64,000 bases of DNA, taken from Bacteroides neonati. GTDB taxonomy: Bacteria; Bacteroidota; Bacteroidia; Bacteroidales; Bacteroidaceae. The first letter of the stretch is position 1. Every line of letters starts with the position of its first letter. The stretch lies in assembly GCF_000499785.1 (NCBI RefSeq), contig NZ_HG726020.1:62001-126000 (forward strand), written 5' to 3'. Shown in pieces: positions 46,493 to 64,000 of the stretch. The translations under genes were made by a program, and so were the position numbers. The notes beneath the pieces were generated by a model. The model ran no database searches and was not told the DNA's origin. It saw only the letters and a list, made by a program, of their open reading frames with translations.

Positions 46493-47035
46493 TCAATAAC
46501 GATTGTAGGATATGATCTTGTCTTTAGGCTTACGGCTTTTCTTGCGTTTGTCTTTGGCGGGATAACCGATCAGAATATCGAGAAGCAAACGTTTCGAGGC
46601 AGGAATACCGGTGAGTGCTTTGATCTCTTTCTCGTCAAACCACCCTAGAATACAAGAGCCAAGGCCTTCGCTCTCGGCCGCCAATACAAGATGGGCAGCA
46701 GCAATCCCCACATCAATCAGTGGGAAGTGCTTGTCTTTTACTTTGCCACCCAATAAGGAAGTGATATTGGCAGATTCTTCCACGACCAAAATATGAACAG
46801 GAGCCGTGCGGGCAAACTTATTCATGCCCATGCCTGCGGCTGCTTTGCCTACCTTCACGGCAAGTTCTTTATCAGTCACCACCACAAATCGCCACGGTTG
46901 CGCATTGCAGGCCGAAGGAGCTAACCACCCTGCCTCAAGTATACGTTCCAACTTCTCGGGCTCTACTGCCCTACTTTCGTCATAAGCCCGGTCGCTTTGA
47001 CGGGCATTGACCAATTGCAAAAAATCATTGTCCAT
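46493..47035 (-). CDS. nitroreductase-family FMN oxidoreductase
   Basis: 180 aa. FMN-binding segments are visible in ARQSDRAYDESR, GWLAPSACNAQPWRFVVV and GLGSCILGWFDEKEI. The family reduces nitro compounds, quinones or flavins using NAD(P)H. It lies downstream of riboflavin synthase on the same strand (41-nt gap), which fits a flavin enzyme. It stops at TGA, showing the host code. Convergent with the YihY gene, 4 nt apart. Confidence 0.9.
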   Translation of the reverse strand: MDNDFLQLVNARQSDRAYDESRAVEPEKLERILEAGWLAPSACNAQPWRFVVVTDKELAVKVGKAAAGMGMNKFARTAPVHILVVEESANITSLLGGKVKDKHFPLIDVGIAAAHLVLAAESEGLGSCILGWFDEKEIKALTGIPASKRLLLDILIGYPAKDKRKKSRKPKDKIISYNRY

Positions 47036-47739: not shown

Positions 47740-48117
47740 CAAAATAGAAGAAGAAGAGAGAAGATAAGGGCATAAAAAAAATGAAGCTTTTATAACCCCC
47801 TATGGCTATCAATCACTTAAGAAAATCGTTATTCATTTTTGCGCTTCTACTGCCTAGCAAGAAAGCTGCAAATATAGGGCTTTATTTATTGAAAACCAAA
47901 CGAATGAGCACAAAATAAAATATCAGATTATAAGGCTTTGATAGAGTCACATCACCGCAAATATCCTTTTTTGATATTTGGAAAATCACCTTTTGCGTGA
48001 AAGAGGGAGGAGTGTGGTTAAAGCCGCCATCTCTCTAAAATATTACCCCATACCCCTTCTTGCATCGGGAAAAAGAAAAGCCAGCTATCATTGTTAATAA
48101 CTGACTCATTTATTAGG
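47740..48117. other. gap between host ribE and the prophage
   Basis: No gene seen. It holds an 8-bp hairpin CAAATATC/GATATTTG (47958-47980) and A/T-rich sequence. The chromosome-prophage junction is probably here or just inside, but no attachment-site repeat can be found because the other end of the prophage is outside the window. No tRNA or tmRNA was recognised. Confidence 0.4.
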
Positions 48118-49856: not shown

Positions 49857-50051
49857 TTACTTATTTTTATAGTGGTAATCTACTCCAAAAAGCGCACCAG
49901 AAAAGGTTGACAGTTCACCGAAGGCAACCAATACCGAACTATTTATTATACCAGCAGGTGGAACGCAAAAGCCAGCTATGAGCAACCCTACACCTACCAG
50001 ACATAGAAAACAAGCTACTATTAATTGTATATTATTTTTCGTGTTATTCAT
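49857..50051 (-). CDS. holin-like small membrane protein
   Basis: 64 aa with two hydrophobic segments (IQLIVACFLCLVGVGLLIAG and SSVLVAFGELSTFSGALFG) separated by a short polar turn and ending in a basic tail (YHYKNK). Last gene of the late transcript, the position usual for lysis genes. No endolysin is seen beside it. Holin function is inferred from shape and place. Confidence 0.6.
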   Translation of the reverse strand: MNNTKNNIQLIVACFLCLVGVGLLIAGFCVPPAGIINSSVLVAFGELSTFSGALFGVDYHYKNK

Positions 50052-50064
50052 TTTGTTTATTATT

Positions 50065-51312
50065 TTATTTCATTGATTTAGATATTAGTTTCCTATTGCC
50101 AAATGTTCCGCCATCTATTAAATCAAAAGCACTGTAATTCAGCACACACCATTTTCCATTATAAACCAAATCATCTGCACCTGCATCATCACTTAAACTA
50201 TCGGGAATAAAAAGCAGTTCTAAATATGTATGACCGTGCAACTCTACCGTTTGGCATTGAATGATATTATCAATATCACCAGCATTATTTGAATACACAT
50301 CAAAACCACCAGCTATTAAACTTATGTTTCCGATAAATTTAGTCATATTGTATATCTTAAATTTATATGCTTTACCGAATTTCAGATTATTTGTGCTACG
50401 TGATAAAATAAGCATTGTACTAAAATCACCATCACTTGCATTTATAATAATATTGGGATTAGTTGCATCCATCACAAATAAATTATCTACTCCGTTTTCG
50501 TATGTTTTATATTCTTCTTGTATTTTCCCTCTTATATACAAATCATTCATTTCCATATCACCCTCTTTAGTAAATGAGATTTTACCATTTGCAAATTGCC
50601 CAGAACCATCTGCATTAAGTGACCAGTTGCCAGTAACACTTTTAATAGCTCCTGTTAAATGTACATTATCTGAATACAAACCATAGCCCGATATCTCTTC
50701 TGTAAATGTAGGGTCTGATATTCCATCCAAACACCCCAATCGGCTCTTTAAGCATCCAGCAAAGGACTTGCTTTTAATTCCATCGAGCACATCTATACAA
50801 GGAACTCCCGATTCATCAGCCTGCAAATAGATAGCTGCCTGTCTGGTCTTATCCGATACATTCCCAAACTGTACTACTTCATCTCCTATTTCTGGTAAGC
50901 TCTGACCATCAAATTCTATCTGCTTTACATAGAGACTGTCGCCTACCACTTTATCTACCTGTACTCAGTAAGATTTGATGGTACTACCTGTAAATCGTTG
51001 GCATCGGATAAAGTCTCCAGCCATAAAGCTCATATCATCTTCAATAGCCAATATATAAGAAGTACTGTCTGTAGATACTTTCTTAATCTTACCATTACCC
51101 TGTGTAATTGCCATTGCACCCTTTAAGGCTCTTATCTTACTGATTAGTAATTCAAATACGGTCATTGTATTTCTGATTACCAAATCATCTACTTCTAATT
51201 TATACTTGCCATCTTGCCAGTTTCATATCTTCCAACCATTACCCGTAAAACCGTTGGTAAAGGTTGGGCTGCCTACAAAACCATCAATAGAGGTACTTAA
51301 TAATTGTGCCAT
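50065..51312 (-). CDS. phage tail protein with two in-frame TGA (Trp) codons
   Basis: 415 aa if TGA is read as Trp. The start is MAQLLSTSIDGFVGSPTF. The first TGA (51223-51225) falls in NGWKI-W-NWQDGKYKLEVDD and the second (50965-50967) in IKSY-W-VQVDKVVGDS; both contexts suit Trp and reading continues without any other stop to TAA. Related Bacteroidales phage tail proteins share the LEVDDL..RNTMTVFELLI segment. In standard code it would be three pieces of 29, 85 and ~300 codons. Probably a baseplate or tail-fibre component. Confidence 0.85.
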
Positions 51313-51365
51313 ATTTGTTTAATTAAAGCAGGTATGAGCTTCCCCATACCTACTGTATTATTGAT

Positions 51366-54300
51366 TTATATCTTTGTTATCTCTATTAATACAATCGGAG
51401 ATAATCTATCTAATGCTCCTGCAAACGTCACATCGCTATATTGAGAGATTAATAAGAAACCGTCCTCATCCACTATTACATCATTAAATTCATACCAGTA
51501 CTGGTTGTTATTAATGACCTTTGATGAGTCTTCGACTGGAATTTGGATAAGCTGATTCTGTACTCTGATTATATTTGGGTATTTATATGCAGTATGTGTT
51601 TTAGCAGATAACAGAAGTCTCACCTTATAGTTTCCAGCAGGCATTTCGGTTAGATACTTAACTGCCTGTTGTGTCGAATCTGTTCTTATACCACCATATA
51701 ATTGAATCTCTTTTTTACCACTATTTACAATCAAGTTATTAGGATATACTCCATTTTCATCAATAAATGTAGGAGATTCCCAATATGCAGGGGTTATATT
51801 TACCTCTAATGAAATGCCATATTTAGCTCTGAATTTGTCTATAATCGTCTTATTATATTTATAATATTTACCAACCTCTTTACCTATTTGCATACCTTCT
51901 AAATCTAATATCTGCGGAACACCAGCTTCTGCATTTGATACTTTATTAACATAACCAACGCTATCCACTATTCCTGCTGTTGTTACATTTCCAAATAAAA
52001 CAACTCGGTGTTTCCCTGTGAAATTAACATTAACAACCTTTTCTACCACCTCATTCAAATTATTTCGTCCTTGAATTGTGATAATATGAATACCTTTAGC
52101 TAATGGTATATCAACAGAATCTACCATTCTACTCCAGACGGTAAATTCACCTTCATCAACCTTGTATCTGAACTCATTTATATTCTCATAATAAATTGCA
52201 CATTCGATGTGGTCATCATATTTGAACTGTGCATTTGGAGTTAGTTCAATTAAGGGGTCATTGACACCATCCACTCTAATAACTTTAACCGATACTTTCT
52301 CTGTATTAGAGTAGCCATATACATTTCTTAATCTAACAAACACATTCTGAACCACTTCAAATAAAGGTTTAATGTCAACCTCAAATGTATTACTCAAACA
52401 ACTAACATCTAGGGAATCATACCATTTATGTGTTCCAGATGGTATAGAATAAGACTGTACATTAGAGAAGGTTTCCGAATCTGAAACATCAAGAAAGTTA
52501 GCTTCACCAAATTCTTTATTAGCATTTACTGTTGTTAATGAAAGCTTTGCAACAGTAACGGTCTCTGGACAAGACACAGAAGAAATAACAGGCACTTCGT
52601 TAAATACTGGAAGCTGGGAACTATATGGAGTCTGTAGCTCTCCCAATAATCGGGTGAAGTACCAAGCATTATCCAGATTATCATTGGTTGGATTTTCCAA
52701 ATACTTTTGAACATACCTAGAAGCACGCTCGGTTGTATCCGTAGAATAACCAAAATTGATTAATCCCGTTTTCATATTCTTACTAAACGAAGTAACACCT
52801 TTACCTCTTGTTACAATAGCAGTTTCGGGTAAGTTACGAATAATTGCAGAATAAGTTTTATAAGATAGATAATCTGGAATAGTTATATTAATAATAAATT
52901 TACAACCAGTAGAAGTTATCAGCTTACTTATCTTCGCTACACGTTGGTAATACATATACTCAATGGCTTCATCTGCTGAGCAAAACCAAATAGTATCACT
53001 ACCATTAGCTCCTGCTATATCAAATATTTCTTCGAAGAAGCTCAAGTCTTTTCTTAAAAGAGCTGTATTTTCATCACTTATACTACCATTAGGTTCTATA
53101 TTATATCCTAATCCGTGAGTTAATTCAGTAGCCAGCGTTGGTTTTCCCAGCGAAGCAAGTTGGTGCTGCGTACGCCATAAGTTAGACCTAAACGGATGAT
53201 TTTCAGAATAAACATACGATGTATTTAATGTGTTTCGTATTTCTGACAGTGGAACATTCGACAAATTAGAGTCCCAACTAAAAGCGGTACGATGAGCAGG
53301 CAATCCATAGTGAGAAACAGAAGCAGGAAAGCGTTCCCCATAGGTAGTGCCTTTCTCGTTATTAGCAAGAGATTCTGGCGTATAAAATGCTGCACCTCCT
53401 CCAGACATTAATAATGTCTTAGGGTCTTTAATACAAGGTTGTGTATAATAAGGGTCTCCATCTGGATTAGCATAAGTAACAGAAGTATAACCAAATTTAC
53501 TATGCAGAACATTGCGGTCACGCTGTAAAGGATACGTATAATCGTTTTCATATTTCTGCTTAATAGGGTCAGAAGTAAGAAAGTTCATATTATGTAAGAT
53601 GAAGTGTCCACCATAATCTTTATGTTTTAATATATCCTCTCTTTGAACTTCAGTTGCATTACCCGACTCAAATGAAAGCCCTAATTCCGTTTCTACAACT
53701 CCAGCTGTATCAAAAACAAAAGGAATAAGCGTATCACATCCATCTGTATATCCCAATCGTCTCGGTGAACGTCTTTTGTCAGCCATTGACAATAAATTCA
53801 TTTCACCATCTGTACGCTCATAGCGTTTTATCTTTTTAGGAAGATATTCTCTATTACAATATCTAAATGCCATTCTCCATAAAGAAGTTAGGTTATCATC
53901 GTTTCTTAAACAGTAGGTGAACTTCTTATCATATTTATAATAAGGTATCTCCATTGACATAGTTTCTGCCTCTTCCTGTGTACATTGTACATCTACATCA
54001 AAGTTATATGTAATTAGTTCTGGCTCTTTATAGAATATAGGAGCAACAATATCTTCTTGATATGAATTATCTTCGTTTTTAAATTGCCAATTAATATATT
54101 TATAACCAAACTCGGCATAAAGCTCAATATCTACCACTCCATCTGCTGGAATAGGTGTCCAATCTACCGATTGAAGCGTGGACTCCGTACCATTTTCTTT
54201 AATGGTCTCGGTATATTTATAATGTGTGGGTGCTCCTTTTTTAGTTAGTTGCCATTTAGAGAATATAGAACTTACCGAATTATCCGTTTTGTCAATATTG

Positions 54301-55913
54301 GTACAACTCACTTCCATTGCAAAAGGAACGACTGTAACACCCATACTGGTAGTTAGATTATGTTTGGGTTCTTGCAATATCACATTAAATATACCAGACT
54401 GCACCAATGAACGAACCATTCCAGTATCTGAGACAGTAGCCATTGTTGGCTCGGAAACTGACCAGTGTAATGTATCTACATCTGCATCTACAGGAGTTGG
54501 TATATAGGATAATTGATAGTCATATCCTGCCACTATCTTGGCTGCTCCTTGAATTGTCAGGTTAGTAGCAGGTATAATAATACGTATAACATTATCATCC
54601 TTTTTGCCACCTTGTAAAGAGGACAACTGAATCGTGACATCTCCTTTCTTAATAGCTTTCACCAGTCCATTTTCAATGGTCGCCACATCAGTATTGGAAG
54701 AGTCCCATAAAACAGTACGATTGGTTGCGTTGGAAGGAGTTAATGCATATTGGAACTGGTGCGTTTCTCCCACATCCAATGAAATAATCTTATTGGTTAT
54801 GGCAAGGGAACGAACGGGAGTTAATGCAGTCAGTGAAATGGAATCGCTGATATGATTATCAGATGTAGCAGTGATAATTACTTCACCATCCTTCTTATAG
54901 GTAACCATCCCCAAGGGGGTAACGGTAGCAATATCGACATTGCTTGACTCGTAATGAAGTGTTTTATTTTTAGCATTGGCTGGTAAAACTTGGGCGATAA
55001 GCTGCAAGGGTTCATCGGAATTTAATTCGGTTTCCGTATTCATTATTTTCACTGATTTAACTGAGATGGAAACTCTTACCGAAGCCTCTGCTGTCGCACC
55101 ACCCCGAACAGCTTCGACTTTGATAATACAGTCACCGTTTCCCATAGGAGTAACCACACCAGAGCTATTGACCATAGCCACATTAATATCTGAAGAGAGC
55201 CATTTAAGTGTTTTGCTAGTAGCATTATCGGGAAGGAATGTCGCGATAATTCTTTCTTGTGCATCATCCAAGGTAAGTTGATAGCTGGACAGTAGAATAC
55301 TGTCAATTAAAATATCCTCATTGTTGCCACCACCAATAGTGAATAAAAGGTCTCCTATATACACCTTGGGAATTACCTTTTCACTCTCATCAGCGATAAA
55401 ATAAAAGACTTTGCGACTTTTCTGTGCCAATGAATCATATCTATCTTGCGGCAATATCTCAAACAAGAAATTACAATCACCCGTAGCATTAGATAATTCC
55501 ACCAAGCCAGTAGCAACCGCTCCTTCCGTCACCGTTCCTGTTTCTGTGATACTGCTACCGTCCGCCTCAGTAATGGCTGAACTGGTAGCCTGTTTTAGTT
55601 GCAAGACATTCAACGGCGTTTTGGCAATCAATCCTTTATTAAAAGTTATTGTACCCTCAGCCACATCATCAGACTCTTTACTGAGGAACTTATTAGGTAA
55701 ATCATCTATCTGTGTTTGCAGGACTTCCACCTCTGCATCTATTCGGGTGTTTATCTCTTCCACGTCTTTTTTATGCTGATACTCCAGATTCTCTAAAGCC
55801 ATATTAGCACCAGCATTAGAAGAACCACCACCCATAGAACCTGTATAGGTCAGATGGGTAGTGTTATATTTTCCTCTACCTTTTTTAGGTATGTCTCTTT
55901 CTTTAAATTGCAT
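51366..55913 (-). CDS. large tail protein with Ig-like domains, possible receptor-binding/enzyme module
   Basis: 1515 aa. A Gly-rich N-terminus and coiled coil (~40-75) are followed by about four bacterial Ig-like (Big_2) domains (~205-540; repeated ATV...G.V motifs such as NVDIATVTPLGMVT and NTDVATIENGLVKA). Residues ~640-1100 form a possible enzyme-like region with FTYCLRNDDNLTSLW and GGHFILHNMNF, vaguely like a polysaccharide deacetylase, and the C-terminus resembles a carbohydrate-binding or fibre domain. It has about 15 Trp codons, all TGG, and no TGA. Probably recognises the host surface. Stops at TAA, 2 nt before the next gene's upstream neighbour. Confidence 0.75.
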   Translation of the reverse strand: MQFKERDIPKKGRGKYNTTHLTYTGSMGGGSSNAGANMALENLEYQHKKDVEEINTRIDAEVEVLQTQIDDLPNKFLSKESDDVAEGTITFNKGLIAKTPLNVLQLKQATSSAITEADGSSITETGTVTEGAVATGLVELSNATGDCNFLFEILPQDRYDSLAQKSRKVFYFIADESEKVIPKVYIGDLLFTIGGGNNEDILIDSILLSSYQLTLDDAQERIIATFLPDNATSKTLKWLSSDINVAMVNSSGVVTPMGNGDCIIKVEAVRGGATAEASVRVSISVKSVKIMNTETELNSDEPLQLIAQVLPANAKNKTLHYESSNVDIATVTPLGMVTYKKDGEVIITATSDNHISDSISLTALTPVRSLAITNKIISLDVGETHQFQYALTPSNATNRTVLWDSSNTDVATIENGLVKAIKKGDVTIQLSSLQGGKKDDNVIRIIIPATNLTIQGAAKIVAGYDYQLSYIPTPVDADVDTLHWSVSEPTMATVSDTGMVRSLVQSGIFNVILQEPKHNLTTSMGVTVVPFAMEVSCTNIDKTDNSVSSIFSKWQLTKKGAPTHYKYTETIKENGTESTLQSVDWTPIPADGVVDIELYAEFGYKYINWQFKNEDNSYQEDIVAPIFYKEPELITYNFDVDVQCTQEEAETMSMEIPYYKYDKKFTYCLRNDDNLTSLWRMAFRYCNREYLPKKIKRYERTDGEMNLLSMADKRRSPRRLGYTDGCDTLIPFVFDTAGVVETELGLSFESGNATEVQREDILKHKDYGGHFILHNMNFLTSDPIKQKYENDYTYPLQRDRNVLHSKFGYTSVTYANPDGDPYYTQPCIKDPKTLLMSGGGAAFYTPESLANNEKGTTYGERFPASVSHYGLPAHRTAFSWDSNLSNVPLSEIRNTLNTSYVYSENHPFRSNLWRTQHQLASLGKPTLATELTHGLGYNIEPNGSISDENTALLRKDLSFFEEIFDIAGANGSDTIWFCSADEAIEYMYYQRVAKISKLITSTGCKFIINITIPDYLSYKTYSAIIRNLPETAIVTRGKGVTSFSKNMKTGLINFGYSTDTTERASRYVQKYLENPTNDNLDNAWYFTRLLGELQTPYSSQLPVFNEVPVISSVSCPETVTVAKLSLTTVNANKEFGEANFLDVSDSETFSNVQSYSIPSGTHKWYDSLDVSCLSNTFEVDIKPLFEVVQNVFVRLRNVYGYSNTEKVSVKVIRVDGVNDPLIELTPNAQFKYDDHIECAIYYENINEFRYKVDEGEFTVWSRMVDSVDIPLAKGIHIITIQGRNNLNEVVEKVVNVNFTGKHRVVLFGNVTTAGIVDSVGYVNKVSNAEAGVPQILDLEGMQIGKEVGKYYKYNKTIIDKFRAKYGISLEVNITPAYWESPTFIDENGVYPNNLIVNSGKKEIQLYGGIRTDSTQQAVKYLTEMPAGNYKVRLLLSAKTHTAYKYPNIIRVQNQLIQIPVEDSSKVINNNQYWYEFNDVIVDEDGFLLISQYSDVTFAGALDRLSPIVLIEITKI

Positions 55914-55914
55914 A

Positions 55915-57987
55915 TTACTTCTTCTCTATTAATTTAACCTCATTGGTCTGATTGGCATAGTCTATGCTCATTGTATCTATGATAAACTCTTTCTTTAAAT
56001 TATTTTCCTTTACCAAAGTATAAGGTTTCAAATCATCCTTCAAAGTCAACTCTAACATACTCGCTGGTGTACTATATTGGTTCACATATCTATAAACCAA
56101 TGCCTGTTCGGGCTTTAAATATAACTGGTCTAATCCTTTATTGTAAAGGTATCTCCAGTAAGTAGTATAGGCACTATTGGTGGTATCTCCAATACAGGAA
56201 TAGCTAAAGTCCTTGTTATCGTAACTACCTATTTTGGTCTGTATTTCGTCAAACTCACTGACAAATGCCTCATTAATCACATTGGTATAGAGGGTATCCG
56301 TATCATTCCACCGCTCTTTGGTGTTCACCTCTATCTTGATATCCCTTAGCCAAAGTGCATCCACCCGATAAGAGCCATCCACTATTTGAGGACTGTATAA
56401 TATAAATTCTGGTGTACCAGACAATCCATCACTGGCAGCAATAGGAATACCACAACCTGTAGCATTGATGCCCAGTTGCCAGCTAAGTGTATTCTTTATG
56501 TCCGTCCACTTACCGATATAGTGACTGGTATCCGAATCATCAAAGTAGATTTTAAAGGTAGTATCGTCAGTAGTCCACTTCGAACCGTTCCAACACTTAT
56601 TCCCAATCTTTAATTTAGCAGTGATACATAACTTGGCAGGGTCATAATTATCTTTCTTCCTACCGTCTAAAATGGGACATATCCGACCTTCAATATCCGT
56701 CCACATCCCCGAACCGCTAATGACCAGATAACAGTCTGCACCCAGAATCATTGGCTTTACCGCATCAGATTTTAGTTTCAATACAGGCATCGCTTTGTTA
56801 TGTTCATCCGAAGGATGTGCCCATAAATGCCTGCTGAAACAGATGTAGTTATTAAAAGACAGTGTACCCTGTGTACCTCTTCCATTTTCATAACTGGCTA
56901 TCTTTATGAAAGAAGCTCCTATGAAATTCTGTAGGGAAGAGTAATACAAACTCGTTGGATTCACCGTAGACCAACTACCATCTTTCCTATAGTAGGTATG
57001 TTCCCAATTCTTATCCCAATACGTACGGTAGACATAATGGGTATCACCGAAGGTTTGGGTATAGGAGTAGTAAGGAAGTACACTACTCATTGTATTGGTC
57101 AGATTCTCTTCGGCAAAGAGTTCTGGCAGGATGTTCTTAATCGTGTACTTATTATTGGTCACTGATATCTTATTATAGACATTACCCAATGATAAGCTGC
57201 TACCTGTATCCATATAATCACTGGCTGCAATGGTTTTGCCATTGGAACAGGTCTCTATGACTGGAGACTGAAAACCGTCTGCACTGGAATAGACCAAGTA
57301 CTCATTCATCCCCTTCTTTATGGCATCGTAATCTATAAAATAGACACTAGAGCCTACGGCTATCGCTGTCATTCCAAAAATTTGGCATACCTCTTGCAAA
57401 ACTTCTCGATACGTAAAAGTTTCATCCTCATCTTCTCCTATAAAGTTCTGTTCAGATATAATAAGTTTCTTATAGATGTCGGTACTGGTACTGCTCCAAT
57501 CCAACCGATTGGCATTAGTAAGGTATATCTTTTCATACGCATTGCATTTCTTGATACAGGCTATCAGAAGCTCTTCCAATGTGACAATACCCACCCTACC
57601 AGAAAGCGGCTCATATTTAAAATAGTCCAGCGTGGATAAAGCATCTATCGCTTCAAGTTCAAAGCTCTCATATTCCTCTTCATACGATTGGTTATAGATA
57701 TTGGGAGTCAAATATCCAATTCATTCAATCGCTCCCAATTCATTTAGCAAGGAAACTTTAGTACCTTGTGCAGTGGCATTGTAGATATCAAACAGGTAGT
57801 CATTGTGTACTACCGTAATAGTGGCTGAACTTAATTTCAGTGGTTTATATATTGTAGTATCTCCTTCATAACCGACTATAAAGGGAGATTCTCCCAATAG
57901 AATATCGGTAGTAGTGCCTTGTGTTTGTATCTGGACAGTGTATCTTTTTTTGTCATAAATGCTATTGAAGTATCCTCTGTAACTCAT
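55915..57987 (-). CDS. distal tail protein with one in-frame TGA (Trp) codon
   Basis: 690 aa when the TGA at 57721-57723 is read as Trp. The junction reads NELGAIE-W-IGYLTPNIYNQ, a continuous and plausible sequence. Without recoding it splits into an 88-aa piece and a 598-aa piece lacking an ATG (it would have to start at TTG). About 14 other Trp codons are TGG. Position after the tape measure gene suggests a distal-tail or tail-tip role. Confidence 0.85.
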
Positions 57988-57989
57988 TC

Positions 57990-59782
57990 TTATTTAATTT
58001 TAGCTGTTTTCGTATTGTAATTACTTAGTACGCCCTGTAACTCTTTTCCTTTTATCCGAAAGGTAACTTCTCCAGCCATTATAGCAGAATTGTTGCCTTC
58101 TGGCTTAATCAATTTCTTTAGTTTATTCAAGGGAGCTATTATTTCTGGATTGGAGCTCGCTCCGTTATATTCTCCCACATTGACCACTGAATTCCCATAT
58201 ACCACACCACCATCAGCCATTTTAGGGATACTGGCAATAGCAGCAGCCAATCCTACACCTGTGGCAGCCATTGCTATCACATTCATCGGGAATACCAGTT
58301 TACTTTGTTCGGCTATACCCAATGCTGCTTCGATACCAAATAAAGAAGCCAGTGCAGGTAGCATAGCAGCCACACCGCTAATGATATTGGCAGTATAGCC
58401 TAACCAGCCAGCAGTGGCTGAATCAGTTGCAGCAGAGAAAGCCCCCATTATAGTGGCTACCTGCGATAACGATTCCAGATAGTCATTATTGACTTTTACA
58501 TCCTTTTTGGTTAGTACAGGTTTTAACTTGATTCCCGATAAATCAGTTCCTCTGGTCTGGAGCACATTGGTAGGTTTTTCTTTGCTGCCATCCAATCGCT
58601 TTTTATCGACTCTGGCTTCAATTTCAATAAGTAGTTTCTGGTTTTGTAATTCTTGTAATGCTTTATAAATTCCAGCTCTGGTTTCATCGGTGACAGCATT
58701 GGAATAATCCGCTCTGGCTTTGGCAATCTCAGCATCCAATTTAGCCAAACTACCCTCTGCTGGTGCTACTTTGACAGATGTACTATTCGACTTGAAAGAG
58801 CCGTTAATTTTGGCATCCGTATTATTTAATTGTAATTCGGCATCACTGATAGAGCCTAACATCTGATTAGCCTTATTATTAAGCTCTTTAGCCTTCCCAA
58901 TGAAGGATTGCTCATCATCTGCCATCTCATAGAACAGTGACAGGAATTTACCTAACTGCCCTTGCTTGCTGGCTTTGAACGCTTCCAATTCCTTTTGCAA
59001 TGCTTTTGATTCCTTGGTAGCCATCAAATCACCCGTATATGGATTCACCTCTTTGGCATTGTCTATTTTAGTCTGGTAATCAGTGACCTTACCATCATAC
59101 GCCTGCTTCATCTCCAGCCCTTTAGACCGATTGGATTCTTTCATTGCCCAATCTAATGTTCCTCTGGACACATTGCCAGCCAGTCCTTGGTTAGCTAAAC
59201 CCGAATCCAATGTTTTATAAGCGGCTTCCTTTTGAGTAGCAGCCAATCCTTGCTGTAGTTGATTAATCTCTTGCTGTATCTTTCGGGCTTTCTCCAAAGC
59301 AGCATTTCTATCGGCATCAGATTTACTTTTATCTCTGGAGATATTCTCCTGTATCTTCTTTTGTAATAGCAAGGAACTTAATTCTGAATTACTAAAAAGT
59401 TCTTTTGTCGCCAATTCATCTAAGATAGTAGATAGTTCTCCAGCCTTGGAAACTACATTACTTAGATTGGTGAAGAAATTCGTAAAGTCTGCCTGCATTA
59501 CATTGGTAAAAAGGAATCTCAGCCAGCTTTCATCTGGTCTGTTATCTTCACAAAGGCATCTCCAGAGGTCTGCGTACTATTAATTGCTTTATTAAATGCT
59601 TCGCCAGCACTCATTGCAATACCTATTCCACCTGCAAACTTCATAGCCATACTGGTCATTGAACCAAGAGCATTGCCTGCGGTTCTACCTGCTTGCTGGA
59701 AACCTCTAATCTGTCCTGTGCTTCTTTGTATATTGTTATCGAATTGGCTACTGTTAAGTAGTAATCTGGTTACTAAATCCAT
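57990..59782 (-). CDS. tape measure protein with TGA (Trp) codon and a possible 1-nt frame break
   Basis: Starts MDLVTRLLLNSSQFDN, Gly/Ala-rich amphipathic N-terminus (FAGGIGIAMSAGEAF), then a long coiled coil and a hydrophobic C-terminal block (GVAAMLPALASLFGI). A TGA (59519-59521) in QMKAG-W-DSF reads as Trp. Five codons later the frame is lost at a run of five T; one more T would join it to FTNVMQADFTNFF. So the gene either has a real 1-nt deletion, a sequencing error in a homopolymer, or an unusual -1 shift. Joined length about 600 aa, implying a tail of roughly 90 nm by the usual ratio. Sets tail length. Confidence 0.75.
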
Positions 59783-59784
59783 CG

Positions 59785-60392
59785 TTATAGTGTATTAATT
59801 AGTGAATCGGCTTTAGCCTTTAATCTGGCTATATCATCTTTAGTAATAGAGGTATCTTCTTTCTGATTATCCCAACTAAACTTCATTATGTCCTCCATAT
59901 TTAGTTTCTTGGTGCTATTTACTTGTGCAGTGATATATGCCAGCAATCTGGTCTGTTCTCACTGCTCTCTATTCCTTCTATGGATGTTTCCTAGTAGGAC
60001 TGACAGTTCATACATTTGCATCTCATCCAGAAAATAGGCTGGGCTGATACCACCTTCCACTACCAATATAGCATATAACTCACTAATGGTTAATTCTTTT
60101 TTTTTGCATCTTCTGTGGTATCAACCGTAAAGATAGCCTGCTTTGCCATCTCCTTACCGATAAACTCCTTTAGAGTTTTTAATACCTCCACCTCTTCATC
60201 CAGTACATCTATAAACTCATTAAAGGTCAGTTGTATCTCTGGATTATTAGCCAGCAGCAAACAGTAGATAAATACATATTCATCCGTGAGTGTCTGCATC
60301 TTAAATATCTTACCAGTAATCTGTTCATAGATAAAGAAAGCTCTGAGTGTCCACTTTATGCAGTAGTCTGTATCGTTGATTCTAATATTCAT
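59785..60392 (-). CDS. tail assembly chaperone, frameshift fusion product (gpGT-like)
   Basis: A -1 shift at the A-run 60097-60105 carries translation from the short product past AKKK into ELTISELYAILVVEGG. This extension contains a TGA (59959-59961) in NREQ-W-EQTRLLAY and ends at TAA 59785, 2 nt before the tape measure ATG. The full fusion is about 200 aa. The extension has no start codon of its own. This matches the G/GT pair of lambda and many siphoviruses, where the fusion loads the tape measure with tail-tube protein. Confidence 0.8.
60090..60392 (-). CDS. tail assembly chaperone, short product (gpG-like)
   Basis: 100 aa from MNIRINDTDYCIKWTLRAFF (60392); an open frame extends to 60455 but those residues look like leader sequence. 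Soluble, mostly helical, ending ...TEDAKKKN. Located between tail tube and tape measure genes, the conserved place of tail chaperones. The stop follows directly after the slippery run. Confidence 0.8.
   Translation of the reverse strand: MNIRINDTDYCIKWTLRAFFIYEQITGKIFKMQTLTDEYVFIYCLLLANNPEIQLTFNEFIDVLDEEVEVLKTLKEFIGKEMAKQAIFTVDTTEDAKKKN
60097..60105 (-). promoter_or_regulatory. -1 ribosomal slippery site
   Basis: Nine A followed by G give the zero-frame heptamer A_AAA_AAG, the same type as E. coli dnaX, followed by AAT TAA in frame 0 and by a 100-codon open frame in -1. Confidence 0.75.
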
Positions 60393-60456
60393 ATTCCTGT
60401 ATTTAAATAGAAATAGGGCAGCTATTGGCAATAGCCCAGCCACCCTATCCTTCATT

Positions 60457-60915
60457 TTAAGCTTTAGTTATCTTTGTTAATGCGCCAGCACCTTCCAAGG
60501 TCACACTGTAAGTTGCGTTTTCATTGCCTGGAGCATTGGCTGTGATACCTGTGATTACTACTTTGCCCTTATAGCCAGTTCCTTCTTTGGGTGTCCACCC
60601 ATCAGCAGGTACGGATGTACCATCGTTGTTTGCTACTCCAGCATTTCCTTTTATGGTAAATATCACATCAATCGGATTTCTAGCTATCCATAAATCAACC
60701 AGTTTACCATAATCTTCTTCGGTAAACAGGTTATCGGAAGTAATGCTGTAGCTCAATTTACCAATCATCTTACTGGTTCATTCAGCGTGGTCTTTACTAG
60801 AAACCTCTATTGCGTTACCAGATAAGCTGAGTTGGTGATTAGTGGCATAAGCCAAAGACTTTCCATTATAGAAAAGCATAAGGTCTGAACCTCTTACTAT
60901 TGTATTAGTTGCCAT
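60457..60915 (-). CDS. major tail tube protein with in-frame TGA (Trp)
   Basis: 152 aa. Starts MATNTIVRGSDLMLFYNGKS; the TGA (60778-60780) falls in SSKDHAE-W-TSKMIGKLSYS. In this tail-tube family the SSKDHG..W position is normally Trp. Continues to TAA. Without recoding the product would be a 45-residue stub plus a 103-residue piece. It polymerises to form the tail tube. Overlaps the upstream gene by 11 nt. Confidence 0.88.
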
Positions 60916-61297
60916 TCGTTATTATTTTAAATGTAAGTTGTTGTATATATGTATCTTCATTATAATCTTCATCTGCCGAAACCAATCTAATATCATCTAC
61001 TTGGATAGTAGCAAATGTCCCTCTCTTTCCCTCTAGTGTATTCCGTACCAAATCAGCTAGTTCTATAGCCTCATTGTACTTATCGGAAGCAATCACTACA
61101 TCCATCATAAGTGTATCATTTGCAGAGAATCTATCTTTCGTATATGCAGGAATGATATTTGTCCGTTTATAAATGATAAAAGGGAATGAAGTATTATTGG
61201 TAGCTATTAGCGGAAAGATTTTATTACTTATTTTAGCAGCTATATCTGTATTACCAGATAGTAATTCGTAGATAGCTTTGCCTATTTGCAAACTCAT
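60905..61297 (-). CDS. tail terminator/completion protein (DUF3168-like)
   Basis: 130 aa, MSLQIGKAIYELLSGNTDIA, with the family-like IFPLIATNNTSFPFIIYKR and a C-terminal beta segment. Lies between the gp10-like and tail tube genes. Such proteins cap the tail tube and set the head-tail joint. No TGA inside; ends at TAA. Confidence 0.8.
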   Translation of the reverse strand: MSLQIGKAIYELLSGNTDIAAKISNKIFPLIATNNTSFPFIIYKRTNIIPAYTKDRFSANDTLMMDVVIASDKYNEAIELADLVRNTLEGKRGTFATIQVDDIRLVSADEDYNEDTYIQQLTFKIITNGN

Positions 61298-61746
61298 TAT
61301 CGTTGTCTATTTGCTGTTCGTTGTATGGATTCTGTTATCAATCTATCTATATTACTAAAGATTTCCTGCTCCTTAGCTTGCTTGGCATCTCTAAAGAAGT
61401 GGTTAGCACTCATCGAACCTCTGTTAGCTCCATTTCGTCTAAGAGTTCTATTAGATGTTCCTGTTTCAAAGAACTTTAATCTAAAATCTCCTAGGATATG
61501 TACCTTCGCTGCGGTAGCTTCTCTATCCACCGATACCTTGATACCCGAAGCCAATGTTTTGCCATTCCATCTATTCCTGCTGTTCACCTTGCTACCAATA
61601 TGAGTCCGTAATTGACTTTTGGTCTCTTTGGTCAGTATGTTGGCTGCCTTTCTCAAAGCAGATTTATATACCTGCTTCTGCTGCCTGCCAGTTAACTCAG
61701 CGAAGGTGGTCAGTACCTGCCTGCTGTCTATCTCTACATTATTCAT
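61297..61746 (-). CDS. HK97 gp10-like head-tail protein
   Basis: 149 aa, basic, with the family features VYKSALRKAANILTKETKS and FETGTSNRTLRRNGA. Ends at TAA overlapping the ATG of the terminator gene. Proteins of this family complete the neck region. Its single Trp (NRWNGK) is TGG, showing that TGG and TGA coexist for Trp. Confidence 0.82.
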   Translation of the reverse strand: MNNVEIDSRQVLTTFAELTGRQQKQVYKSALRKAANILTKETKSQLRTHIGSKVNSRNRWNGKTLASGIKVSVDREATAAKVHILGDFRLKFFETGTSNRTLRRNGANRGSMSANHFFRDAKQAKEQEIFSNIDRLITESIQRTANRQR

Positions 61747-62056
61747 TGATTAGTTCTGTTAGGATACTAATGGCTTGCTTATAAAGTTCTCGGCTAACGG
61801 ACAGGATTCTATACCGCTTCCCTTTATAAAGAATTCTGTCAGCTTCATCAATCGAATGATAGTAACGAACAATGAAGGTTACATTCGATGTATGAATGAT
61901 TTCATTATTCAGTGCAACCCTGCTACCAGCATTGTATTTAACTTCGGCTCTGGTGGATAGTTTGGCTTCCCAAAGCTCTGTCATAGAACCATAGGAATCT
62001 TTAGTACTGGTTAGTTTCTCAACCGTAATTTCTTCTCTTAGTAATCCAGCTCTCAT
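61739..62056 (-). CDS. head closure / head-tail adaptor protein
   Basis: 105 aa starting MRAGLLREEITVEKLTSTKD, with the SYGSMTELW and YKGKRYRILSVSR motifs of the SPP1 gp16-like adaptor family. Overlaps the gp10-like gene by 8 nt. Seals the portal after packaging. Confidence 0.85.
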   Translation of the reverse strand: MRAGLLREEITVEKLTSTKDSYGSMTELWEAKLSTRAEVKYNAGSRVALNNEIIHTSNVTFIVRYYHSIDEADRILYKGKRYRILSVSRELYKQAISILTELINE

Positions 62057-62058
62057 AC

Positions 62059-62361
62059 TTACTTTATTTCATAGTGTTTATAAAGTCCTATCAGATATTC
62101 ATAAGACAGAGGTAGTTTAGCCACCGTAGTAAAGCTGATAGGTTCTCTATTGGCATAGAAATTACCTATCATCAATAACATAGCGTGAACTATAGCAGGT
62201 GGCAACTTACCACCTGTTTCTAGTTCTTCTAATGCTGCTACATCTAAATGCTGTTTGACAGAATCTTCTGCCACAGCCATCAAGCCCTCTATGTATGAAT
62301 CATCTGATTTAGAGTCCACCAGTAAGTGCTGTTTAGCCTGTTCCAGTGTTAGATAAGCCAT
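62059..62361 (-). CDS. head-tail connector protein (gp6-like)
   Basis: 100 aa starting MAYLTLEQAKQHLLVDSKSD, an all-helical connector family member (DSYIEGLMAVAEDSVKQHL, IVHAMLLMIGNFYANREP). Sits between capsid and head closure genes with 2-3 nt gaps. Binds below the portal. Confidence 0.87.
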   Translation of the reverse strand: MAYLTLEQAKQHLLVDSKSDDSYIEGLMAVAEDSVKQHLDVAALEELETGGKLPPAIVHAMLLMIGNFYANREPISFTTVAKLPLSYEYLIGLYKHYEIK

Positions 62362-62364
62362 CGT

Positions 62365-63552
62365 TTATGACTTTAAGATAGCTTTTTGGAATGAATCTAC
62401 TCTGCGTGGTTTGGCATCAAAGTGAGCATTGATAACCAATCTCACCTTGCCATTGGCAGCTTGTGTATAAGGGTCAACAGTCAAGTCGATTCCGCCCCAT
62501 TGAGCAATGACATAATCTTCGAAGTTACCAAATATAATACCTTTGGCAGGAACAGCTGAGGTACAAAGGACTTTGTATCCGTTTACTTCATTACCTTCCA
62601 TCAGATAAGTTTCACCTGTCTTGGCAGTAGTCTTTAAATCTCCTTTGGCAGATGGAGATACAATAAAACATTTATTGCCTTTCACATTTGCACCTTCCAA
62701 TGCAGTTTCCATATCTACAATATCTTTATAGGTTATAGCAGTAGAACCAGCTACCACACCATTTAAAAGTCCTTTGGGTTGGTTGGTAGAACCTGCTCCA
62801 CTACCCAGAACAGTAGCTTCCAATTTATTGCTAATAGCATTAACGATATCTCTTTTAAGCATCTCTTCGGCACTCAAAGAGTCTTGGATTAAGAATTGCT
62901 TCGATATGTCAATATAGGCAGTCAGCCTTTTAGATTCTAGGGTTACCTCTGTAAATGAACCAGCACCCTCTGTAGCAGTACCTGTTTCATCCGCTCAGCC
63001 GACATTACTGCCAGAATAAGCAGGAATAGAAACATTACCCGTTAAACCTGTCAGGTAATTAGCTCCAGCCTGTACCATCACCAAGTTAGCTCTGAGGGGT
63101 TCTAAGAGACCTAACTTGTCTTCCGCTACAATTTCTTGACCTGCACCCGCTACAGTGGCTTTAATATCTGCTCTCTCTTCTATAGGCAATACAATCTGTC
63201 CAGAGTAATTTACCCCTGCTTTACGCATTTCAGCCTGTCCTTCATTCACAATCTCAATAGCTCGTTCATCTAATTGTCTGTTGTTGGCTACATCATTGAT
63301 AGCTTTTAGTAATGAAAATTTCTCTTTCATCGTTTTGGTTTTATTCGTTGTGTTGTTTAAATTTCGTTTTGCATCTTCTTCAATAGCTTTCATCTCTTGT
63401 TCGATAGCTGCGAGCCTCAAAGTGATTCCATCAAACTCCGTATTCTCACCGTCATTCAATTTTCTCGTTTCTGCCTCCGCTCCAACTATCATTTCCAAAG
63501 CTCTTTTCTTTAGCTGGTCTTTTTCATCCAGCAGTTCCAATGTGTTCTTCAT
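62365..63552 (-). CDS. HK97-type major capsid protein with in-frame TGA (Trp)
   Basis: 395 aa. The N-terminal ~105 residues are the helical delta (scaffold) domain. The TGA (62995-62997) falls in SGSNVG-W-ADETGTATEG, exactly where HK97 folds commonly have a GW.xE motif. Reading continues SFTEVTLESKRLTAYIDI to the C-terminus at TAA without any other stop. In standard code the capsid would be truncated at 185 residues and the rest would lack an ATG near the join. Essential structural protein, so the TGA cannot be a null mutation in a functional phage. Confidence 0.92.
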
Positions 63553-64000
63553 TAATGGAGTCTATTCTTTAGTTCTAAGTAATACCCGGATAAATCTTCC
63601 TGTTTCAAGTCCGCCATCTTTCTTAGTGCAACAGAAGTATCCGGATAGGCTTCTTTATATACCGGTGAAACATCGAACAGCTCTTTAAACTTGGCAATCT
63701 TTCGAAGGTAGCTACCTGCTCTCTTCTCCCATACGTCACTCTCAATGGTAAAGGCAAAGGAAGAGGTACTGATATCGCCTCGCTTTAATCCTTCCAGCAA
63801 CTCATCACCCAATGCAGTGTGGGGAGCATTAAATCTATATTTAAGTCCTGTTTCATCTACCGATAGTTCCAGTGAACCAGTACCAAATTTACTTCTAGCT
63901 AATACACCTCTTTCTTCATTATGATTCAGCAGGCAAAGGATATCGGAAGTACCCAATATACCATCAATGGCAGAGGGTTCTACTATCTCCGTAAAACCGC
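63552..64000 (-). CDS. prohead protease, partial at right edge
   Basis: The visible ~148 codons begin inside ...GFTEIVEPSAIDG and include LLNHNEERGVLAR (His) and RGDISTSSFAF (Ser), the catalytic region of the U35-type prohead protease, then SPVYKEAYPDTSVALR. Ends at TAA overlapping the capsid ATG. The start lies beyond the window. Cleaves the capsid delta domain during maturation. Confidence 0.88.
   Translation of the reverse strand, partial: GFTEIVEPSAIDGILGTSDILCLLNHNEERGVLARSKFGTGSLELSVDETGLKYRFNAPHTALGDELLEGLKRGDISTSSFAFTIESDVWEKRAGSYLRKIAKFKELFDVSPVYKEAYPDTSVALRKMADLKQEDLSGYYLELKNRLH

Follow-up and report, generated by a model that had tools for sequence, protein, structure and literature searches.

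A prophage in the genome of Bacteroides neonati (assembly GCF_000499785.1; host genome G000, 5.02 Mb) was analyzed, starting from a stretch of 64,000 nucleotides of contig NZ_HG726020.1, referred to below as the window (G000:C2:62001-126000, with window position 1 at G000:C2:62001). The prophage extends from its left attachment site (attL) inside the window, across the window end, into the overlapping segment L003 (G000:C2:124001-144000), and spans about 29.1 kb from attL to attR. Its late genes contain in-frame TGA codons, and beyond the window it encodes a tRNA with the anticodon UCA, whose long extra arm presents a second anticodon-like loop carrying the tryptophan (Trp) triplet CCA. The features of the element are as follows:

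47761-47791, no strand: attL, a 31-bp direct repeat with an exact match to attR
50065-51312, minus strand: tail protein with two in-frame TGA codons, 30 (51223-51225) and 116 (50965-50967); matches to PHROG 22546 and to a tail fibre family
51366-55913, minus strand: tail-region protein of 1515 amino acids with 15 TGG and no TGA codons; Big_2 repeats and a polysaccharide deacetylase-like domain
55915-57987, minus strand: distal tail protein, TGA at codon 89 (57721), the first of its 14 Trp codons; the name is that given in an earlier note on this DNA, with no Pfam or PHROG match
57990-59782, minus strand: tape measure protein in two frames, 59498-59782 (TGA at codon 88, 59519) and 57990-59498; a single open frame in the relative G172
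59785-60066, minus strand: tail chaperone extension, TGA at codon 36 (59959)
60457-60915, minus strand: tail tube protein, TGA at codon 46 (60778); Pfam PF06199
62365-63552, minus strand: major capsid protein, TGA at codon 186 (62995-62997); Pfam PF05065
63552-64000, minus strand, cut by the window end (whole gene, L003:1552-2106): head maturation protease, TGA at codon 10; Pfam PF04586
Upstream of the protease gene and beyond the window, minus strand: portal, large terminase and small terminase (L003:6544-6927)
G000:C2:130951-131043 (L003:6951-7043; would-be window positions 68951-69043), minus strand: UCA tRNA with two anticodon arms; found by ARAGORN, below threshold with Rfam, scored with our own covariance model
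L003:12973-14697, beyond the window: integrase
L003:14819-14849, beyond the window: attR, the partner of attL (exact 31-bp match)

The earlier note, made from the letters of the window alone, had reported seven TGA codons in frame within six late genes, and all seven (capsid, tail tube, chaperone extension, N-terminal part of the tape measure, distal tail and, twice, the tail protein) were recovered in frame at the positions listed above. Three further ones were identified beyond position 64,000, at codon 10 of the protease, codon 9 of the portal and codon 87 of the large terminase gene, so that the prophage contains ten in-frame TGA codons in nine late genes. None of the 20 late frames is interrupted by TAA or TAG, as the note had described, and 19 of them end at TAA; the sole exception is the out-of-frame end of the broken portal gene. 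TGG is also used for Trp in the late genes. On the integrase side, seven genes (one of them the integrase gene) contain 14 Trp codons, all of them TGG, and one of the seven ends at TGA; the comparison of 0/14 TGA on this side with ten in the late genes involves too few codons to support a claim alone. The host uses the standard code: a host open reading frame (ORF) at 46493-47035 ends at TGA, and both host tRNA-Trp genes seen have the anticodon CCA.

Stop codons were also read in relatives of the prophage, by tblastn of 20 late-gene pieces against 67 loci containing capsid relatives (63 viral-contig loci, 3 genome-contig loci and 1 phage record taken from 85). This analysis revealed mainly TGA in frame in 10 loci (including the IMG/VR record L047, i.e. 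this prophage), mainly TAG in 10, and no stop or stray TAA in 47. Stray TAA codons were found in L066, L083 and L102; among the TAG loci, L048 and L055 have one TGA each, and L048 and L056 one TAA each. The TAA in another capsid relative, L136, sits at an alignment gap. L047 is identical to the prophage over 21,185 bases and probably represents the same strain. An additional TGA relative was identified in G172, a genome of the same genus as the host genome, in which a related prophage (G172:C1:1867000-1893000; L134 and L135) has late genes that are open apart from TGA codons.

In the TGA relatives, with this prophage left out, 38 TGA columns were comparable with at least four standard-code rows. 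Trp accounts for 40.1% of the residues in these columns (background, 1.0%), is the modal residue in 14 of them and occupies 10 of the 13 conserved ones. The 119 TAG columns show the same kind of bias for glutamine (20.0% versus 3.3% background; modal in 28; 7/12 conserved columns). The statement of the earlier note that Trp is the natural residue at each TGA of this prophage was borne out for four of its seven sites. In rows outside the TGA clade (see below), Trp occupies 62/63 at capsid codon 186, 34/35 at chaperone extension codon 36, 30/41 at tail tube codon 46 and 13/19 at distal tail codon 89, a column with TGA or Trp in most relatives; the statement did not hold for tape measure codon 88 or for codons 30 and 116 of the tail protein. 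At two of the additional sites, terminase codon 87 (12/33) and portal codon 9 (5/12), Trp is still the commonest residue, which brings the number of such sites to six of ten.

This copy of the prophage is damaged. A DDE transposase gene lies inside the large terminase gene (L003:4267-5556), and the reading frame changes in the portal gene (near L003:2930) and in the tape measure gene, where the break noticed earlier proved to be real, the two frames overlapping by one base at window position 59498. Because of these three lesions the copy is probably defective, and the same lesions could be taken to mean that the TGA codons themselves are products of nonsense decay in a dying prophage. However, the TGA positions are shared with relatives, in-frame TAG and TAA are lacking here, and the G172 frames, those of the three damaged genes included, are open except at TGA. 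Moreover, the DNA downstream of the TGA codons has been under purifying selection: in a comparison with G172 (five genes summed), changes at codon positions 1, 2 and 3 number 126, 93 and 359, and 590 of 739 residues are identical, which indicates that the parts after TGA were kept as protein. Decay is therefore a very improbable origin of these codons. The shared codons, the Trp-enriched columns and the downstream selection support the view of the earlier note that a lysogen with a code-4-like usage resides in a standard-code chromosome.

Two further observations concern the position of the prophage in the host genome. The attR site overlaps the 3′ end of an Rfam match to the Bacteroides small RNA (sRNA) BTnc060 (RF04184; 196.9 bits, below the family threshold of 228.9), and integration may have occurred at the end of a conserved sRNA gene represented by this BTnc060-like stretch. 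A second capsid gene of the same family, without in-frame stops, is present elsewhere in the host genome (G000:C8:217785-218972; 44% identity).

In a tree of 74 rows (built by a quick method; 16 of the rows were filled to less than half), all ten TAG rows grouped in one clade (100), and eleven TGA rows together with the standard row L109 formed another (99). Both clades and the standard row L139 make up a 23-row set (99), within which the tree gives no resolved order. The tree needs three code changes, compared to a mean of 20 for shuffled codes, and the adjoining TGA, TAG and standard rows indicate that code use flips between close kin. A single clade of all recoded rows was rejected (p 0.0017), with L109 and L139 falling among them, and no single origin is claimed. 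The standard row inside the TGA clade, L109 (MT835917.1), has no in-frame stop in 18 late-gene matches and likely represents a return to the standard code.

No tRNA gene had been recognized within the window, and the earlier note had proposed a search beyond its end for a tRNA with a UCA anticodon. Such a tRNA, a candidate decoder of TGA, was found about 5 kb beyond the end of the window, where it precedes the probable start codon (ATG) of the small terminase gene by 23 nt. It is 94 nt long (L003:6950-7043) and is the sole tRNA reported by ARAGORN in 60 kb from C2:124001. The cloverleaf with the UCA anticodon was confirmed by ARAGORN and by stem pairing, and it scored 80.7 bits with our own covariance model, which was built from 29 sequences including this one. 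The acceptor stem has A1-U72, C2-G71 and G73, as in host tRNA-Trp, and the anticodon loop (CUUCAAA) differs from that of host tRNA-Trp (CUCCAAA) at position 34 only. The extra arm closes a 7-nt loop, GUCCAAA, with CCA, the Trp anticodon, at the anticodon place.

ARAGORN labels this molecule as tRNA-SeC and Rfam model RF01852 matches it with 41.7 bits, in keeping with a selenocysteine tRNA and with TGA specifying selenocysteine. This score, however, is below the gathering score of 47 and is exceeded by host Ser-UGA tRNAs (42.8 bits with the same model). Since there is no SelA match in the host genome and the TGA columns are enriched for Trp, selenocysteine insertion is hardly credible.

Promoter-like sites around the tRNA and packaging genes were no more frequent than in shuffles. 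Suppressor tRNAs linked to theta ribozymes are marked by an HDV-like ribozyme at the tRNA 3′ end; in L047, no Rfam family reached its gathering score (whether Rfam includes theta ribozymes was unchecked). A DNA similarity search of the tRNA and its flanks against phages returned four weak records, two of which fall under a tRNA-Ser; against 399 family genomes, only short matches besides the own one were obtained, the best mostly in the AT-rich stretch after the tRNA. The exact two-arm pattern occurs once in these 399 genomes, in the prophage itself.

The second arm is recurrent among viral contigs. A first scan that left the extra loop open yielded at least 120 stretches; ARAGORN, run on 80 of them (L181-L260), found seven UCA tRNAs, three of which are long, and all three contain GUCCAA in the extra arm. 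A scan requiring the loop GTCCAAA returned 22 stretches, every one a complete tRNA (7/7 acceptor pairs, 5/5 T pairs, G73); 19 are distinct, one being the tRNA of this prophage. The control with a scrambled loop gave five stretches, none of them tRNA-like. When only the anticodon arm and the T loop were fixed, with 26-46 bases left open, 21 stretches were found, of which 20 are tRNA-like, and 20/20 have UCCAA; the fixed anticodon arm was Trp-like, so this count applies to tRNAs with an arm of that kind. The odd stretch (L325) has 6/7 acceptor pairs and no G73. By distinct arm, 18/18 of the loop-open UCA set contain UCCAA (0.35 expected from shuffles) and none contains YUGA.

Altogether, 30 distinct two-arm UCA tRNAs were compared. 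All 30 have G73; the first acceptor pair (1-72) is A-U in 25 of them, the other five having G-U. Their extra-arm loops are GUCCAAA (19), CUCCAAA (8), UUCCAAC (2) and GUCCAAC (1). With L249 left out for its poor extra stem, the remaining 29 show changes on both sides at all four pairs of the extra-arm stem, with 87% of cells paired and the innermost pair failing in nine rows; no shuffle attains the whole-structure scores. According to a rough ORF-coverage test with thresholds set by us, 15 of the 30 loci look TGA-recoded, compared to 12 of 96 others (p 5e-5), and two of the 30 look TAG-recoded. The D arms in the alignment are clearly different sequences, some of them serine (Ser)-like. From the presence of the second arm on several scaffolds we infer that it may have originated repeatedly.

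The design is not confined to UCA tRNAs. A loop-open scan for amber (CUA) tRNAs yielded at least 120 stretches, with 44 distinct tRNA-like ones at 6/7 acceptor pairs and 25 at 7/7. In the 7/7 set, 22 of 25 arms contain CUGA or UUGA (4.1 in shuffles) and none contains UCCAA (Fisher 2e-9 for the YUGA split versus UCA). In a survey of 1,149 distinct ARAGORN tRNAs from loci between L181 and L456, a long variable region (at least 18 bases) was found in 28/34 UCA, 37/42 CUA and 12/23 Ile-UAU tRNAs, and in none of the Trp-CCA (0/36), Gln (0/48) and Ile-GAU (0/25) tRNAs. By distinct arm, UCCAA is present in 26/26 UCA tRNAs, YUGA in 24/29 CUA tRNAs and GAU in 9/9 Ile-UAU tRNAs (2.5 in shuffles), and in 8/9 of the latter GAU is centred in a 7-base hairpin loop. 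Loci selected through the CCA pattern contribute to the UCA figure, as does the IMG copy of the prophage tRNA; the CUA set is independent of the loop, and the Ile-UAU set came by chance, though the motif was first noticed on L188. Among 167 control arms of Ser, Leu and Tyr tRNAs, UCCAA occurs in none, YUGA in 8 and GAU in 18. Scoring was restricted to the kinds named here, which leaves aside eight other sense tRNAs with a long variable region.

Counted by tRNA, the isoleucine form is represented by L188:11311-11401 and 11 more long-armed phage Ile-UAU tRNAs (between L242 and L422), 11 of the 12 with GAU centred in a 7-base extra loop. The CUA tRNAs of L378, L407 and L430 have the extra loop UUAACC or UUAGCC in place of YUGA, and may insert another amino acid. 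Within the TAG clade, the CUA tRNA of L051 has the two-arm design (CCCUGAA).

These results bear on two other explanations of the arm. The first is that the phage is an ordinary TGA-recoded one, with a plain suppressor tRNA whose extra arm is of a neutral class II type and whose loop CCA has no role. Six of the 34 surveyed UCA tRNAs lack a variable region of 18 bases or more, so the arm is not always needed, and searches of the TGA relatives yielded no tRNA of this type (see below). A neutral arm, however, does not account for a loop that stays constant while its stem covaries, nor for three kinds of tRNA each bearing the triplet of its own presumed amino acid when Ser, Leu and Tyr arms do not; we regard this explanation as unlikely, though worth keeping in mind. 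The second assigns the arm a role other than identity, either in diverting defence nucleases that cut anticodons or in providing a docking site for a modification enzyme. Phage tRNAs do answer anticodon nucleases, some tRNA modification enzymes need A36-A37, and the loop keeps A36-A37 beside the triplet. The arm, however, goes with the changed anticodon: it is missing from all Trp-CCA (36), Gln (48) and Ile-GAU (25) tRNAs surveyed at these loci, and a decoy or modification site seems doubtful.

It is likely that the ten late TGA codons are read as Trp by the UCA tRNA and that its second, CCA-bearing arm serves as a recognition signal for the host tryptophanyl-tRNA synthetase (TrpRS). tRNA-Trp is identified mainly by its discriminator base, its anticodon and its first pair (PMC9976931). 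By adopting UCA, the tRNA gives up C34, one of the anticodon bases used by TrpRS for tRNA identity, and the CCA of the extra arm would restore that signal, so that the first arm would decode and the second confer identity. The synthetase might reach the second loop as it stands, or the arms might trade places on the D stem. The amber tRNAs with a CUG/UUG arm and the Ile-UAU tRNAs with a GAU arm fit the same rule. There is, in our judgement, a reasonable probability that these molecules represent a class of phage tRNAs with two anticodon arms on several scaffolds, the first reading UGA, UAG or AUA and the second showing the classical anticodon (CCA for Trp, CUG/UUG for Gln, GAU for Ile) to a host synthetase.

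The codons, the tRNA gene with its second arm and the recurrence of the design were observed directly, whereas charging with Trp, UGA decoding and co-transcription with the late genes are predictions. Should the tRNA be produced together with the late transcript, it could also act as a gate, with most head, packaging and tail proteins remaining incomplete until it appears. Such a gate is compatible with a tRNA placed in front of the packaging genes and with the finding that TGA is mostly the first Trp codon (in 7/9 TGA genes of the prophage, p 0.008, and in 9/12 of G172, p 0.035).

Several results count against this interpretation. The minimum free energy fold of the prophage tRNA alone is no better than that of shuffles (z -1.2), its centroid having both hairpins. 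A long extra arm and G73 are also Ser identity elements (PMC7609411, PMC9976931), so that mischarging with serine is possible, and a synthetic pseudo-anticodon arm gave modest help, seen with a histidyl-tRNA synthetase (HisRS) carrying a fused extra anticodon-binding domain (PMC7590224). As this copy is likely defective, the tRNA may be out of use here. In relatives, four of the ten TGA sites have a residue other than Trp as the commonest one, namely protease codon 10 (no Trp), tape measure codon 88 (0/7), and codons 30 (0/3) and 116 (2/6) of the tail protein. TGA also occurs in three or more G172 genes that lie outside the late cluster, so a restriction to late genes fails for the family. CUA tRNAs were found in four of the ten TAG loci, and those of L046, L055 and L107 are plain, 72 nt long and without an extra arm; ARAGORN found none in the other six. 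Nor are the CUA two-arm loci enriched for TAG recoding (7/19 versus 24/87, p 0.42).

The TGA relatives also count against it. ARAGORN accepted no UCA tRNA in the nine other TGA loci or at record ends, and none was found in the G172 and G006 stretches; our own cloverleaf scan (L053 and L054 left out) and the covariance model were negative as well. An Rfam search for a hidden tRNA in L134, L135 and L045 found none. Both G172 Trp tRNAs seen have the anticodon CCA, and the whole-genome model search scored 150 candidates per genome. A short gapped pattern was uninformative (83, 111 and 64 hits in G000, G172 and G006, compared to 48, 73 and 50 for the backward control). Two UCA calls made on L050 by loosened ARAGORN, one of them antisense within the capsid gene, were taken as noise, and a covariance hit of 14.5 bits in L116 was dropped as not being a tRNA.

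If the proposed role of the second arm is true, decoding and identity are split within one molecule, and a phage can change its code without a synthetase of its own. This would address the question of how a stop-reading tRNA obtains the right amino acid from a host enzyme that reads the anticodon, to which the literature covered gave no answer. It would also supply a precedent from nature for a design tried until now in synthetic form, and a rule for finding and assigning such tRNAs, the amino acid being readable from the extra arm. Recoded phages are frequent in the gut. The literature searched, in which most subscription journals were not represented, showed no natural tRNA bearing two anticodon arms.

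Stop-codon-recoded gut phages using codes 4 and 15 were reportedly described by Borges et al. in 2022. Such phages resemble the present case: TGA is read as Trp, or TAG as Gln, chiefly in late genes, the hosts use the standard code, and some of the phages are integrated. Closely related lineages of crAss-like phages switch code, with suppressor tRNAs in about 35/40% of genomes (PMC10136315), and 38 of 10,742 pig-gut prophages have alternative codes (PMC12454387). Unlike these, the prophage analyzed here is temperate and small, its affected late genes have about one TGA each, and its likely decoder, with a second anticodon-like arm, is placed just ahead of the packaging genes. In the suppressor tRNAs of theta-ribozyme phages (PMC10879173), the tRNA has likewise been proposed as the switch for recoded lysis and structural genes; however, control is exerted by a ribozyme beside the tRNA, 99.7% are amber, and no extra arm is mentioned in the sections consulted. 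A long variable arm is shared with tRNA-Sec and allo-tRNAs (PMC7609411), and tRNA-Sec also has the anticodon UCA. Allo-tRNAs are marked by 8/4 or 9/3 acceptor/T stems; the stems here can be drawn in the ordinary 7/5 form (fully paired in 22/22 stretches). Differences from these molecules are A1-U72, CCA in the extra loop and the lack of a SelA match in the host. A further related system is the allo-tRNA with an engineered pseudo-anticodon V-arm (PMC7590224), in which an anticodon-like variable-arm loop recruits a synthetase; that system is synthetic and relies on HisRS with a fused domain, while the arm described here is natural, recurrent and apparently meant for host enzymes.

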